Shown: in pieces, positions 53,324 to 60,624 of the stretch | How positions within the stretch are numbered: the stretch's first letter is position 1 | How the letters are laid out: each line of letters starts with the position of its first letter | Program-made: the position numbers and the translations under genes | The notes under the pieces: generated by a model | What the model saw: only the letters and a program-made list of their open reading frames with translations | What the model was told of the DNA's origin: nothing | Databases searched by the model: none | Assembly (NCBI GenBank): GCA_016188575.1 | Contig: JACPHN010000098.1 | Span: 1 to 63,980, forward strand | Length of the DNA: 63,980 nt | Source of the DNA: Candidatus Schekmanbacteria bacterium | GTDB lineage: Bacteria > CSSED10-310 > JACPHN01 | Reading direction: 5' to 3'

Positions 53324-54421
53324 ATGTCTCAAGCGATCACCCGCCGCGTTTTTATTATCTTCGCGTTCCTGTTTCTCGGCCTGATGGCCGCTTCTGCGCC
53401 CGCTTTCGCCGACTGGGAGCAGGGCATGAAGCTCTTTGAGTCCAAGGATTTCGCTGGCGCACAGTCGGAGTTCGAAGGCGTCATTGCCCAGAACCCCGAG
53501 CATCCAGCAGGGTACTACATGAGCGCTCTGTGCCTGATCCAGCTCAACAAAGTCGATGAGGCGATCGAGGCCCTGAAGAAGACCGTCCAGCTCGAGCCAA
53601 AGCACTACGACGCGAACTATAAGCTCGCGCTGTTCCAGATGAAAAAGGGCAGGACCGCCGAGGTGATCCAGGCCAGCACCGCGGCTCTCGAAAATACCAC
53701 GAAGGACGGGGAAAAAGGCCTGTGCCTGAAACTGCGCGGCGCGGCGTACCTGAAGAACAACAAGTCGGCTGAAGCGAAGGCAGATCTCGACCAGGCGATC
53801 CAGCTTCTCCCCAACGATCCCGGCCTCTCCTACCTCGCCGGAGTGGCATCCCTGAAGACCAAGGATTTCGCCGACGCCTTCGAAAAGCTCAGCAAGGCCT
53901 CGGCCGCCGAGCCGACGAACAAGGAGTACACGCGCCACCTTATGGAGGCGGCAAGCCTGTCCGGGAACTACGAAAAAACGCGCGAGATCGGTGAGGGCCT
54001 CGGCGATCAGCGGAGCAGCGAGGCAACGGAGCTCCTTGGCGCGGCGTACCTGGCGCTCAAGGACTTCCCCAAAGCCGCCACGACGTTTGAGTCTCTTCCC
54101 GACAGCAACAAAGACAAGCTGTACAACCTCGCCCAATCTCACATGGGCGCCAAGAATTGGGCCAAGGCCGAGGCGACGCTCAAGGCGTGGCAGGAGAAAT
54201 CCCCGAACGAGCTGAAGACCTTCGAGCTGCTCGGACTTGTGTATGAGAACCTGCACAAGCCGAAAGACGCGCTCGCTCAATACCAGAAGGGAAAGGAGCT
54301 AGCGGGCGGGGACAAGTTCGACAAGATGATCGATCGCGCACAGCTTGCCATCAAGCATGCCGAGGCAGCGGCGGCTCCCCCGCCTCCCGCCGAGGAAGAG
54401 GCGCCCCCGGCCGAGCAATAG
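53324..54421 (+). CDS. Periplasmic TPR protein of the TonB/ExbBD operon
   Basis: 365 residues. Signal peptide with cleavage near APAFA-DW (about residue 29). About eight TPR units follow (GMKLFESKDFAGAQSEFEGV, LCLIQLNKVDEAIEALKKTV, AYLALKDFPKAATTFESLPD). It ends in a Pro/Glu-rich tail. Last gene of the operon; with the TPR lipoprotein it brackets the motor genes and probably scaffolds the complex in the periplasm. Confidence 0.87.
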   Translation: MSQAITRRVFIIFAFLFLGLMAASAPAFADWEQGMKLFESKDFAGAQSEFEGVIAQNPEHPAGYYMSALCLIQLNKVDEAIEALKKTVQLEPKHYDANYKLALFQMKKGRTAEVIQASTAALENTTKDGEKGLCLKLRGAAYLKNNKSAEAKADLDQAIQLLPNDPGLSYLAGVASLKTKDFADAFEKLSKASAAEPTNKEYTRHLMEAASLSGNYEKTREIGEGLGDQRSSEATELLGAAYLALKDFPKAATTFESLPDSNKDKLYNLAQSHMGAKNWAKAEATLKAWQEKSPNELKTFELLGLVYENLHKPKDALAQYQKGKELAGGDKFDKMIDRAQLAIKHAEAAAAPPPPAEEEAPPAEQ

Positions 54422-54516
54422 GCGGCCGCCTGCCGACAGCGGTGCGCCCGGAACGCGCCACTGCGGCGGGGAAGTGCCGGATTTCCGCTCCGGCCCGCGT
54501 CAGATTGACTGCGTGC

Positions 54517-55926
54517 CTATCGCCAGGGGCGCTCGTCCGTCAAACGAAAGCCGCAGTTGGGCGCCGGGCAGTGGCCTTTTTCCCAGTGTGATATGCAGTT
54601 GTGATCGACCAACCCATCGACTCCCGTCGCCAGGAGACCGGCGTACGTGCGAACCCAGTAGCGAGCTCGGGAATTTGCGTCGTACTTGCTCCAGTCCTCT
54701 TCCCAGCCGTGGCCCCGCTCGTACCGGGAACGCACCAGCCCAGCCACGTGCGCCGGATGCCAACCGCGGCCAAGCAGGCAGCGCACGATCGTCTGCAGGT
54801 TGGTCGGCTGGAGTAGCGCCGGGTTCGGATTTCTCAGGGGAAGAGCCACGCACGGCGGCAGTTGGTCCAGGTCGGTGCGATCATAGGTGTTCGGCCAGTC
54901 GGGCCAGGGGTCCTGCGGGGTCGCGTCGAGCTCGCGGTCGAAGCGCGCGAGCTCCGACTGCTCGTAGGCATCAATCAACCGCGCCACACCTTGCTGGCCG
55001 TCTGGAATGGCGCAGCATTGTACCGCTGCGTACTCCGCCGCAGCGGCAAAGTCCCGGCGCATCTTCAGCGCCGCCCACAAGCCGATCTCCCCCGAGTTGG
55101 TCGCGCGCGGCAACGTGATCTGAATTGGCGTACCTTCCGAAACCGCCTTGCCTACCTTGTAACTTTGCACCTTGTGCTTCTGGTGCGTTGAGAACGGCAA
55201 GCGAATATCTCGCATGAACAGCGGATCGCCGTACATGGTGGTGTCGATTGAAATGGCCTCCCGGCCGTGCTCTCTCGGTCCCACCGCAACGTCGGAGACC
55301 TGCAGCGGCAGCGACACGTGCGCGGCCGTCCGGCGGATGATCTCCTGAGTGAAAAAGCCCAGGAGCCGCCCCATGGCCTCGAATCCGGCCGCCGCTGTCA
55401 TGGTGACCCGTTCGCGGCGCCGGGTTCCCGGAGCGAGGTGGGCGTACTTTCCGAGCAGCGTATCCGGTACGCTGGCCAGACGCTCCAGGTGATGGTGAGC
55501 CCATGACTGAAAGGGAACGCGGGTCACAAAGTGGTAACCCTGTCCGGTCATGATGGACATGTGGTCGATGCCATAGTCCGAAAGCAGCGAACGCACTTGG
55601 TGATAAAGCGGTTCCAGGGCGACGAACACGTCATGGGAGCACAGGTACACGCGCTCGGGGTGATCGCGGTTGTAGTATTCGATATCGAGGATGAACAAGG
55701 TGCTCTGCCGATCCCAGACAGAGCGGAAAACGTCGAGCCGGTTGTCCAGAATATCGCCGAGCTCCTCGACCGAAGCGGATTCGAACGGCCGGTCGTTGCC
55801 CTGGCGGAGCAGCTCGCGCCCATATCCCACCAGGTAATGACTGGTCGGTTCCCCGTGGACATCGGCGATGTATTCCCAGAGTCTGCGGCGAACCGCGGGT
55901 TGCGCGTAGTATTCGTAATGATCCAT
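54517..55926 (-). CDS. Archaeo-eukaryotic primase (AEP)-like protein
   Basis: 469 residues. The three AEP catalytic motifs can be read in order: motif I LFILDIEYYN (Asp81, Glu83), motif II IMTGQGYHFVTRVP (Thr127-His132), and motif III ISIDTTMYGDPLFMRDIRLP with FSTHQKHK (Asp228; the RLP-S-H-K run matches RVPGSxxxK of replication-type AEPs). The C-terminal part (about 370-460) resembles PriCT helices (IVRCLLGRGWHPAHVAGLVR) and ends with a CxxH/CxxxxC cluster, CISHWEKGHCPAPNC, probably zinc binding. Family assignment by motif only. It follows the endonuclease IV-like gene by 9 nt. A nucleotidyltransferase acting on DNA or RNA is inferred. Confidence 0.7.
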   Translation of the reverse strand: MDHYEYYAQPAVRRRLWEYIADVHGEPTSHYLVGYGRELLRQGNDRPFESASVEELGDILDNRLDVFRSVWDRQSTLFILDIEYYNRDHPERVYLCSHDVFVALEPLYHQVRSLLSDYGIDHMSIMTGQGYHFVTRVPFQSWAHHHLERLASVPDTLLGKYAHLAPGTRRRERVTMTAAAGFEAMGRLLGFFTQEIIRRTAAHVSLPLQVSDVAVGPREHGREAISIDTTMYGDPLFMRDIRLPFSTHQKHKVQSYKVGKAVSEGTPIQITLPRATNSGEIGLWAALKMRRDFAAAAEYAAVQCCAIPDGQQGVARLIDAYEQSELARFDRELDATPQDPWPDWPNTYDRTDLDQLPPCVALPLRNPNPALLQPTNLQTIVRCLLGRGWHPAHVAGLVRSRYERGHGWEEDWSKYDANSRARYWVRTYAGLLATGVDGLVDHNCISHWEKGHCPAPNCGFRLTDERPWR

Positions 55927-55935
55927 GGTGTGAGG

Positions 55936-56931
55936 TCAGCGAAAAGAGGCGTCGCCGACAGCGGAGCGGAAGCCATTGCGGAATGAAATGACGCGGGCGA
56001 GCGATTCCTGGAGTGCCGGCAACCCGCCCTCATACACCTCCAAGATGAGCGCTGGTGGTCTGGGGCAGAGCTGATTGCCAAAAACGCGGCAGAGCACGGG
56101 GCGCAGATCCAACATGGCGTGCACGCCCTCGCCAGGCTCCCCAGCCAAATAGGGAGGTCCCCCGTTTCCCGTCCAGCGAATCGGGTCATGGGTGCGGTGC
56201 AGGCCGCAGCCGGCGAGGTGGACAAGCTCGCAGTACGGATTGAGCACCGCCAGCGCCGCGTCCAGGTAGGCGCCAAACGTCGGAGAGTCGTCGGGCGGAG
56301 GCAGTGCCGTCGCGCGGTGATCCCCGTTCTCCGGAAGATGCAGAACCCGTCGGCTATGCCAGAGATGCGGCACGTCGAGACACGCGCCGATCGGCATCTG
56401 GCGGTGGAGTTGGCGGACGAGGTAGGCGAGCTCTCGGGGTGTCGCACATGGCTGAGCGTATTCAAGGTTTTCGAGAAGGATTCGCGGCGCTCTGCTGTCG
56501 GCGATCTCTGCGTGCCAGCGGCGCGCCAGCTCGGCGAAGCTCTCGGCAAAGCGCTCCGCTCGATCGGCGCGCTCTCCCGGGCTCACCCAGCCGTGGGCGC
56601 CGGGGTGAAGCACGAAAGCCCGAGCGCCGAGCTCGCGAGCCCAGCGATAGGCGTACCAGGCATGATCCAGGGCATGCCGGCGGTGGTCCGCTCGGAGTGA
56701 GCTGAGGTCCCATTTCGAGCTAGGTGCGTGCACGTCGAGCCACCGCAGGTTTGGGAGCTCGCGGTGAATGGTGTCCGCCAAGGTCCGCGGAGACCATGCC
56801 AGCAGGGCGTCTGAGCGATCGACGAGCTCGGGCTGCAGCTCGAGCGCCTCGAGATCGGGGAACAATCCTCCCCAGGCCGCGGGCGAACGGGCCCAGTCGA
56901 GAACGTCACAGCAGGCTACGCCGACATACAC
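55936..56931 (-). CDS. Endonuclease IV / xylose isomerase-like TIM barrel protein
   Basis: 331 residues from a GTG with GAGGA 6 nt upstream. The metal-ligand pattern of AP endonuclease 2 / endonuclease IV proteins is visible: LDVHAP (His68), FVLHPGAHG (His109), ILLENLE (Glu154), CLDVPHLW (Asp186, His189), ELVHLAG (His238), HRTHD (His248) and LILEVYEGG (Glu298); the spacing is close to that of Nfo. The fold is shared with sugar isomerases, so the substrate is not certain. Coupling to a primase-like gene favours a nucleic-acid role. Confidence 0.72.
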   Translation of the reverse strand: MYVGVACCDVLDWARSPAAWGGLFPDLEALELQPELVDRSDALLAWSPRTLADTIHRELPNLRWLDVHAPSSKWDLSSLRADHRRHALDHAWYAYRWARELGARAFVLHPGAHGWVSPGERADRAERFAESFAELARRWHAEIADSRAPRILLENLEYAQPCATPRELAYLVRQLHRQMPIGACLDVPHLWHSRRVLHLPENGDHRATALPPPDDSPTFGAYLDAALAVLNPYCELVHLAGCGLHRTHDPIRWTGNGGPPYLAGEPGEGVHAMLDLRPVLCRVFGNQLCPRPPALILEVYEGGLPALQESLARVISFRNGFRSAVGDASFR

Positions 56932-57039
56932 GACGATTCCTCACACATCGGACGGGAAGCAGGACCAAGACGAGCGATTGGGACATTGTACACCTTCGGC
57001 CGGCAGGAAAGCAAAGACGGGGACCGACGGGAACGGCCA

Positions 57040-60000
57040 TCACGGTTCCGCCTGCTCGGCGCCAATCAGTCGCAGCGAAGCGAAGAGGCGGCGCTGAGGC
57101 TCGCTATAATCGTCGATCATCTTGCCGCGAAAGAGCCTGGCCGTCGCGCCGGCGGCGAACGCGGCCTGGGCGCGCTGCAGCTTGTCCAGTCCGGGACCGA
57201 GCGTCGCGTCGGTCGTGGCACCGAGCTCTCTGGCCAGCCTTTGGGCCTGATCCAGGAGTGGTGCCGCGGACACCTCTCGGGCCAGAGCGATGTGGCCGGC
57301 GTTGACAATGGAGAACAGGAGCGACCGCCTGGCATCGAGCTCCCGGAAGATCGCCGTGGCTTGCGCGTTGAGCTCCGCCGCGGCAGCCAGATCGCCGCTG
57401 GTCTCGCGATGCCATTCGGAGAGGGTGACGAGCACGTCTCCTTCGTCCTGCCGGTTGCCAAGTGCACGCTGAATTGCGAGTGCTTGCTCCGACAGCGCAC
57501 GCGCCTGCTCCGGATGGCCCTGCTCATACATCAACTGCGCGAAGTTACTTACGAGCAGCCCTTCGCCCTTGCGATCTCCGACCTCGCGGGCGATGCTAAT
57601 GGCCTGTTCGAGGAGGCGCCGCGCCGGGGCGACCCGCCCTTGCGTCCAGTGGAGAATGGCGAGGTTACCGATCGTGCTGCCTTCCGTGCGCCGGTCTCCT
57701 ACCTCGCGGTGAATCGCCAAGGCCTGCTCATACAGAGCGCGGGCCTCGCGAGCGCACCCCCGCTCCATCTGCAAGGCGGCGAGATTGCTCAACGTCACGC
57801 CTGCAAATGATCGATCGCCTACCTGGACGTGAATCGCAAGCGCTTCTTCGAGAAGGGCGCGCGCTCTCTCACTGTCGCCTTGCTCGTAGCACGCGCCAGC
57901 CAGGCTCACCAGGGTGATGCCCTCGTGTCGTCGATCACCGGCCTCACGGGTGGCCACGAGCGCCGCCTCGAAGAACGAGCGCGCATCATCGATCAAGCCT
58001 TGATCGTGGTAGAGCTTGCCGATGTGGCGCAGGGTTCGCCCCTCGCCACGTCGGTCGCGGCGCTCGCGCTGGATGTCGAGCGCCTGCGCAAAGAGCTCCT
58101 GTGCCTCGCTGCCGCGTCCGGTATCGCCGAGAACCAAGCCGAGGCCACGTAGGCTCTCCGCCTCGCTCTCGCGGTTGCCAATGGCCATTGACTCCGCGAG
58201 CGCCGCCCGGTGCTCGATTTCCGCCTCCCTCATCCGCCCCGTGGCGCGGAGGATTTCCTCGCCTAGCTCGTTTCGCGCCGCGATTCCGGGCGGGCTTGGG
58301 AGAGACGAAAGTCGCGCGTAGGCGCGGTAGAGCCGCTCCGCTTCCTCGTTGGCGTAGCATGACTTGGCGGTCCTCGCCCCTGCGAGATAGCAAGAGGCGG
58401 CGCGCGTGACCTCGCCTGCCTGCTCCCAGTGCCTGCCAAGCTCACCCTGCCGAGACCCGGGAACGGCGCCGGAAGCAAGCAATGTAGCCACCGAGCGGTG
58501 GAGCTCGCGTCGCTGCTCGGCGCCGAGCGAGGCGTAGATCACCTCTTGCAGCTTGTGATGACAGAATTGGAGGTCACCCTGGTCGCCGTCGCCGAGCATC
58601 TGCCTGGCCGACAGCTCGGCCAGGCCCGCCATGAAGACATCGGGGGATTGCCGAGCGACGCTCTCCAGCAGGGCGACTGGCACCTCGCGCCCAATCACCG
58701 ATGCCACCTCCAGCAGCGTCCGGGTTTCGGGGCAGAGGCGGTTCAACCTCTGAAGAACAAGATCCCGGATGGCCCGCGGCAGCGCCAGCGCCTCGTAATC
58801 TTCAGCGCGCGCGGCCTCCTCACCAGCCGCGCCCACCCGCCAGTCGCCCTCCTCGCCTTGCCAGATCAGTCCATCCTCGACCGCGGCCCGCACATACTCA
58901 CCGACAAAGAACGGATTTCCCTCGGACTGCCGCGCCAGGAAGCCGCCGAAGACCGCTGGTGCCGGGCGCAAGGCGAGCATGTCGGCGATCATGGCGCTCA
59001 CCGAGTCCGCCGCCAGCCGGCCCAAAAGGATGCGCTCAACCGCGCCGCTTGCAGCCAGCTCCGCCAACACAGGATGAGCAACCTCTTCGGTTCTGTAGGT
59101 GCCCACCACCAGGCACGGCACCGTCGCGAGGGATTGGTGCATAGCGGCGTCCCCCAAAAAAGAGAGGGTCAGCTCGTCGGCCCACTGGAGGTCATCGAGC
59201 AACAGCAGCAGCGGCCGGTCCTGGGCGAGCGCGCCCAGCGTTTGCAAGAGGTAGCGAAAGAGGCGCTGCCTGGCTTTTTCGGGGGGCAGCGGCGCGGCGT
59301 CGGGGTATCTGTCTTGGCCCGGAAGGTCGGCCAGGTTTGGAAAATAGTCGGCGAGAACCTTCCCGCGCTTCGCGAGCAGTCGATCCGCCTCGGCTCGCCC
59401 GCGCTCCCGGCAACGGTCCGTGAGCCACTCGAAGACTCCGGACAGCGGGCACAATGCATTCGCATGGCCAGCGCGACAGTTGCCAGTGAGCTCCAGGACG
59501 CCCATTCTCCTGACCCGCTCGGCGAGCTCGAGCACCAGCCGCGTCTTGCCGACGCCGCTTTCGCCGCCGACGAGCACAATCCCACCGTTGCCCCGCTGGA
59601 GCTCCTCGATGGCCTGAAGCAGTTGGCGAAGCTCGCCGGCTCGTCCTGCGAAGCGCGGGCGATACAGGCACGGCTGGGGCGGCGGCGCGTCGCTCCAGCA
59701 ATCACCGCCGCCGAATCCCACCCGCGCCAGGGCGCAGGCGACCGCCTGAACGTGGCCAACGCGGGCGGCCGGCTCCTTGGCGAGAAGCTGCAAAATGAGC
59801 TCCGCGAGCTCGTCCGGCAAATGTGGAGCAAGCACCTGTGGTGATTGCGGTGAGTGGTGCAGGTGCTGGTCGAGGATCTCCACCAGGCTGCCCGCGAACG
59901 GTGGCCGCCCCGTCACGATCTCGTACAGCATGCAGCCCAGCGCATACAGGTCGGCGCGGGCATCGATGCGGCTGCCGCGAATCTGTTCCGGAGCGATGTA

Positions 60001-60624
60001 CCACGGCGTCCCCGCCGCGTCGACCACCGACAGTTGCTCGCGCGCCGCATAGCCGCCGCCGTACGCGAGCCCAAAGTCGATGAGCACGGGGAAGTCGGTC
60101 GCGGTAACCAGAACGTTTTCAGGCTTGAGATCGCAGTGCGCCAGACCTTCGCCGTGCAAGTAGGCCAGCGGCGCACAGAGGCGTTGAAGGATCGACAGAG
60201 CCGCGGAGGCTTCAGCCTGAGCGCCGGCGGATGGCACCGCGGTACTTGCCCCTGCGTCGTGCGCCACAGGGCGCATGTAGCGGCGCAGCGAGGTCCCCTC
60301 GACGACATTCATGGCATACCATGGCATGCCGTCGCGGACGCCGTCGCTCAGCACGCGGACGATGCCTGGATGACGGAGCCGCGCGAGTGCGCGGATCTCG
60401 CGGCGAATCGTGAGCAACAGCGCCTGTTTGGGCACCTTCACCATTTTCAGGGCCACCGCCTCGCCTGTCTCCTGGTGCACGGCGCGGTAGATGACGCCCA
60501 TGCTTCCCTGACCGATGGACTCTCCAAGGCGGTAGGGCCCCACTGTTGTTCGAGCTGCCGCGCAGCTCGCGCAAAGCGCCGTTTCCTCGGGTATTTCGGC
60601 GCGGCAGGAAGGGCACGAGGGCAT
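57040..60624 (-). CDS. Ser/Thr protein kinase fused to AAA-type ATPase and TPRs
   Basis: 1194 residues. An N-terminal zinc ribbon (Cys4, 7, 18, 21) precedes the kinase domain: glycine loop [10 protein letters not shown], Lys60, catalytic [12 protein letters not shown] (Asp165), DFG at 183, and [19 protein letters not shown]/MalT-like ATPase follows with P-loop [19 protein letters not shown] and [18 protein letters not shown], then C-terminal TPRs ([20 protein letters not shown] and ten or more similar units of ~40 residues). The layout equals the PknK-type regulatory kinases of Myxococcota and related phyla. The HRD motif is HCD. Likely sensor; its effector is not in the window. Confidence 0.92.

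Follow-up and report, generated by a model that had tools for sequence, protein, structure and literature searches.

Results

Two Adjacent Genes on the Reverse Strand

The window, by which we mean the whole 63,980-nucleotide stretch of Candidatus Schekmanbacteria DNA analyzed here, carries two closely spaced genes on its reverse strand. In coding-strand order, a gene with a GTG start at 55936..56931 (-) encodes a 331-residue AP_endonuc_2/xylose-isomerase-like TIM barrel, and it is followed by an AEP (primase-polymerase) gene at 54517..55926 (-), recognized from its ORF, motifs and structural model, which encodes 469 residues. The spacer between the barrel stop and the AEP start (55927..55935, -) is 9 nt, and the unit thus has the layout given in a preliminary description of this DNA. 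A search of 54300-57300 gave no promoter-like or terminator-like site. The GC3 values of the two genes, 0.77 and 0.75, are near those of their neighbors (0.78-0.80), so the pair looks resident. A gene at 57040-60624 (-), 108 nt upstream of the barrel gene and possibly cotranscribed with it, encodes a 1194-residue Ser/Thr kinase-AAA_16-TPR protein, whose PADLOC hits resemble generic kinase matches.

The 469-Residue Protein Has a Predicted Prim-Pol Fold

Judging from its predicted structure, the 469-residue protein is a member of the AEP (Prim-Pol) superfamily. It contains D81-I-E83, T127-G-Q-G-Y-H132, D228 and D240-I-R-L-P-F-S-T-H-Q-K, together with cysteines C359/C444/C453/C458; the DIE, TGQGYH and D...RLP..S-H-K motifs and the cysteine cluster noted in the preliminary description are thus all in place, as are the hDhE/D, sxH-like and third-acid catalytic motifs of the superfamily. 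Among 36 aligned AEP sequences, the catalytic residues D81, E83, H132 and D228 never vary, and neither do G130, R239, R242, S246 and K250. An RRM core, looked for in an AlphaFold2 model with a pLDDT of 95.6, was found: D81/E83, H132 and D228 lie on predicted strands of a catalytic RRM-type core spanning residues ∼1-320. Foldseek and VIA returned Mycobacterium smegmatis Prim-PolC (6sa0) as the best structural match, with a Z score of 17.7 and an rmsd of 3.6 over 254 residues, followed by LigD-Pol (Z 14-15), CAPP (Z ∼12) and PriS (Z 11.9), and a search of BFVD with the same model gave weak matches only. Despite the Prim-PolC-like structure, no LigD-Pol or Prim-PolC sequence model matched the protein, nor did any model in Pfam, NCBIfam, PHROGs or PADLOC; it had no PDB sequence match, and profiles of its family likewise retrieved no PDB Prim-Pol. 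By these computations, the family is unclassified and its predicted fold is closest to the gap-filling Prim-PolC and LigD-Pol enzymes. Nucleotidyl transfer or priming is its predicted activity.

Residues ∼325-469 form a C-terminal domain that is helical in the model. PriL has an Fe-S domain, and PrimPol a zinc finger, that help hold template or primer. The arrangement of Cys359, Cys444, Cys453 and Cys458, LPPC...C...C...C, is reminiscent at the motif level of the PriL domain, and these cysteines are kept in nearly all main-clade AEPs (L044 has no last Cys) and missing from the divergent L048-L050 branch. The only Pfam match in this region, of one family member to PF04104, was subthreshold (14.7 bits; cut-off 22.4). 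In hhalign, the domain aligned with human PriL, in a sequence 100% identical to PDB 3q36, no better than did shuffles, and a PDB profile search with the domain gave no match; the Foldseek and VIA lists for the whole model were filled by matches to the catalytic core. Because hhalign, the PDB profile search and Pfam yielded just this one subthreshold match, the likeness to PriL stays a motif-level resemblance between sequences.

The Barrel Has a Candidate Endonuclease IV-Type Ligand Set

The 331-residue protein matches PF01261 (AP_endonuc_2) with an E value of 6e-16 and 59.3 bits (cut-off 31.1). A candidate identity, endonuclease IV (Nfo) itself, is not supported: the barrel scores 14.8 bits with the Nfo model TIGR00587, far below its cut-off of 129.65, and a canonical Nfo (L073) is encoded separately in this genome. 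The housekeeping AP endonuclease is therefore a gene other than that of the barrel. Canonical Nfo proteins, recognized like L073 from sequence, are also present in three other carriers of the AEP (L075, L076 and L085). The CbiR model NF041277 gives 38.9 bits for the window barrel and at most 67 for the AEP-linked barrels, against a cut-off of 105. CbiR is nevertheless the best or second-best NCBIfam family for every scanned barrel except that of L041, which has no match, and it scores above nfo in each barrel with NCBIfam matches.

AEP-adjacent barrels form two groups. Those of the main group (A5) have ∼280-305 residues and the invariant residues H66, H108, E148, D178, H181, H204, D213, H215 and E244, which we take to be the counterparts of the endonuclease IV ligands H69, H109, E145, D179, H182, H216, D229, H231 and E261. 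D-tagatose 3-epimerase, when aligned with this group, lacks the ligands at H66, H108, D213 and H215. In PDB sequence searches the A5 group matches MJ1311 (3wqo) by far the best (E 1.3e-38); the PDB describes this protein as D-tagatose 3-epimerase-like, and it keeps the nine-ligand pattern in the A5 alignment. The second group comprises the window barrel and those of L041 and L070 (331 to 547 residues). The eight candidate ligands named in the preliminary description, H68, H109, E154, D186, H189, H238, H248 and E298, occur at exactly those positions and are invariant in the three members. The window barrel thus has candidate residues for eight of the nine endonuclease IV ligand positions and no clear equivalent of Asp229; most barrels beside other AEPs keep all nine.

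A model of the window barrel has a mean pLDDT of 69, and its comparison with known folds bears out a xylose-isomerase-like barrel. The fold search cannot choose among functions: MJ1311, xylose isomerases and epimerases are level at Z scores of 19-21, and the Foldseek list contains endonuclease IV as well. Of the earlier Nfo-like reading, then, computation on the sequence upholds a TIM barrel whose metal-ligand set is of the endonuclease IV type, but not identity with endonuclease IV. AP-site cleavage is a candidate activity of the barrel.

The AEP Family Occurs in Several Lineages and Appears Chromosomal

One scan of genome contigs recovered eight AEP relatives, with 45-49% identity, in Candidatus Lindowbacteria, Auribacterota and further bacteria. 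A profile search covered 290 bacterial genomes, the majority drawn from across the bacterial domain, and was positive in 16, the window's own genome among them. Phage and plasmid collections and viral contigs contained no AEP homolog, and the viral-contig scans likewise returned nothing for the barrel. Neighboring genes recognized by eye include hisS, aspS, transporters and glycosyltransferases and have an ordinary chromosomal look. No DNA ligase, glycosylase or Ku gene was recognized beside the pair when the neighboring ORFs were read by eye, nor were any CRISPR genes, cas1/cas2 included. Together with the GC3 values, the lack of homologs in the phage, plasmid and viral sequences searched makes the pair look resident rather than mobile.

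Several loci have further features of their own. A hisS-like gene follows the AEP-barrel pair in L037, L039, L067 and L068 (two bacterial families), and an aspS-like gene does so as well in L037, L067 and L068. Eight loci (L003, L004, L005, L006, L007, L008, L009 and L034) have tandem AEP paralogs, A and B, with catalytic motifs intact in both; in the Auribacterota-type genomes and G238, the second paralog follows the AEP gene at the position that the barrel occupies elsewhere. Divergent two-gene AEP-like units, in which a protein of ∼515-535 residues precedes one of ∼440-450 residues, occur in three bacterial families (L050:1587-4475, L071:6014-8947 and L072:5612-8558), and the second protein of L050 has no C-terminal Cys cluster. 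Divergent AEPs that do not have the four cysteines adjoin ClpC-like genes in L048:6097-10752 and L049:3521-7645 and lie near PIN/PhoH-like genes; L048 also has a PHP-like gene upstream (all recognized by eye).

The Barrel Adjoins the AEP in Unrelated Genomes

BLAST on the first eight AEP relatives found no adjoining barrel. A profile search of AEP neighborhoods in more genomes reversed this result; BLAST had missed the pairing because the barrels are just ∼16-32% identical to that of the window. Three arrangements were found. The barrel gene lies downstream of the AEP gene on the same strand in eight loci (L035, L037, L039, L040, L042, L044, L067 and L068), where the two genes overlap by 4 nt at one extreme and are slightly more than 130 nt apart at the other; it lies upstream in the window and L070, and the two genes are convergent in L041. 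Counting one genome per family, a barrel adjoins the AEP in 7 of 14 bacterial families, compared to ∼0.03 expected under random placement, modeled with one gene per kb and with families treated as independent. Two barrels in this count were detected by profile and not by PF01261, and PF01261 matches number up to five per carrier genome. The other seven AEP-positive families have no adjacent barrel. The AEPs linked to a barrel are distributed over several separate regions of the AEP tree, whose well-supported branches force at least two state changes. The distances of AEPs and barrels correlate with r = 0.92 over all pairs; over eight nonredundant pairs the Mantel r is 0.39 (p = 0.012), and the correlation is therefore weak once near-copies are removed. 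The pairing itself, whose conservation in other genomes the preliminary description had proposed to survey, is well supported. Barrels near the linked group also occur with no AEP directly adjacent, at L079:375-1220 (G244; 243 bits with the A5 profile) and L048:13632-14477.

Discussion

The adjacency of these genes in distantly related lineages suggests an unrecognized DNA repair or damage-tolerance unit. We give about even chances to a chromosomal two-protein unit of this kind; that the conserved neighbors also share a reaction on DNA is our inference. Where DNA is damaged or a 3′ end is blocked, for example by an abasic site or a 3′-phosphoglycolate, the barrel would hydrolyze a phosphodiester and expose a 3′-OH or gap, and the Prim-Pol would extend into a short gap or reprime across it. 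The four-Cys C-terminal domain might help hold template or primer, much as the zinc finger of PrimPol or the Fe-S domain of PriL does, and host enzymes would carry out the ligation. Where tandem AEP paralogs are present, the second AEP takes the partner position. There is precedent for such a partnership: Prim-PolC/LigC fills gaps of 1-3 nt in base-excision repair and is associated with repair enzymes, endonuclease IV among them; Prim-PolC cooperates with enzymes of that pathway, and tagged endonuclease IV copurifies LigC (PMC5663958). A bolder version of the proposal, which we regard as possible and hold tentatively, is a new excision-repair or damage-tolerance pathway of deep-branching phyla, in which a single-chain Prim-Pol with a PriL-like metal domain would act alongside a dedicated trinuclear-metal phosphodiesterase, the latter in place of the end-processing partners of the LigD/LigC type.

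Several observations weigh against a repair unit. Half of the AEP families have no adjacent barrel, and barrels of the same type occur with no AEP right beside them (L048 and L079). The window barrel has no obvious Asp229 equivalent and a model with a mean pLDDT of only 69; no ligase, glycosylase or Ku was recognized by eye beside the pair; the AEP resembles Prim-PolC in structure but matches no LigD/Prim-Pol sequence model; and the distance correlation is weak. A DNA substrate for the barrel is also conjectural, as CbiR, the nearest named family together with the uncharacterized MJ1311, is a corrinoid hydrolase. The main rival reading takes up this last point: the barrel would be a CbiR/MJ1311-like metabolite phosphodiesterase or isomerase, a small-molecule or nucleotide hydrolase whose link to the AEP has a basis other than DNA incision. 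One such basis would be nucleotide or oligonucleotide metabolism, with the barrel degrading primers, RNA-DNA junctions or a nucleotide product of the AEP. The ranking of CbiR above nfo and the MJ1311 match of the main subgroup favor this rival, and AP incision is already covered by the separate canonical Nfo identified in the window's genome and the three other carriers. Yet all scores are under the CbiR cut-off, and no cobamide genes were recognized beside the pair. The nine ligands match those of endonuclease IV and not those of mono-metal epimerases, and what the barrel is repeatedly paired with is a DNA polymerase-like enzyme. We consider this reading somewhat unlikely.

The seven AEP-positive families with no adjacent barrel, and the second AEP at the partner position in Auribacterota-type genomes and G238, are what would be expected if the AEP worked by itself in repriming or translesion synthesis, as PrimPol does, with the barrel loosely associated and adjacency reflecting shared regulation rather than a joint reaction. 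The recurrence of adjacency in separate parts of the AEP tree, in three gene orders and far above chance, makes this improbable. Many bacterial AEPs sit on mobile elements (PrimPol-PV1, PMC5862659) or in CRISPR loci (CAPP, PMC8211822), and a defence module had been suggested at the outset for this pair. That suggestion finds no support, and a role in mobile-element replication or anti-phage defence is very improbable: PADLOC matched neither the window AEP nor the barrel, the phage, plasmid and viral sequences searched contained no AEP homolog, and the neighbors, hisS and aspS among them, look chromosomal by eye and resemble the pair in composition.

What is new here is an AEP family with no database model, present in the chromosomes of several poorly studied bacterial lineages and repeatedly accompanied by a hydrolase partner; it is not a categorically new system. 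A literature search, which covered few subscription journals, found no paper describing the AEP-barrel pair. If the two proteins act together, they would constitute a further bacterial route, besides LigD and LigC, that couples a primase-like polymerase to end processing. Because the family combines a catalytic core and possibly a PriL-like domain in one chain, it may also bear on the origin of the division of labor between PriS and PriL.

Comparison with Known Systems

The barrel shares its fold and a candidate metal-ligand pattern with endonuclease IV, from which it differs in scoring far under the Nfo cut-off and in coexisting with a separate Nfo. The closest sequence relatives of the AEP-linked barrels, CbiR (NF041277) and MJ1311 (PDB 3wqo), belong to the same superfamily; unlike CbiR, the linked barrels score under the CbiR cut-off, have no recognized cobamide context and are linked to a Prim-Pol. 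For the AEP, CAPP (PMC8211822) matches the core at Z ∼12, and no cas1/cas2 was recognized by eye among the ORFs neighboring the AEP genes. PolpTN2-like proteins and PrimPol-PV1 (PMC5862659) likewise have a single-chain AEP core followed by a helical, possibly PriL-related C-terminal region; these are nearly all on mobile elements and often helicase-fused (PMC5862659), whereas the window family is shorter, has no fused helicase and lies among chromosomal genes. The bacterial LigD Pol domain of NHEJ (Z 14-15) is part of an enzyme that couples polymerase to an end-processing phosphoesterase, whereas the window AEP chain has no ligase or PE domain, no Ku was recognized nearby, and its partner is a TIM barrel. 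The closest fold (Z 17.7) is that of mycobacterial Prim-PolC (PMC5663958; PDB 6sa0, 5op0), a gap-filling Prim-Pol associated with base-excision repair enzymes and, via LigC, with endonuclease IV. The two have no detectable sequence match, and Prim-PolC is operonic with a ligase, whereas the window AEP adds a four-Cys C-terminal domain and is paired with a barrel that is not Nfo.
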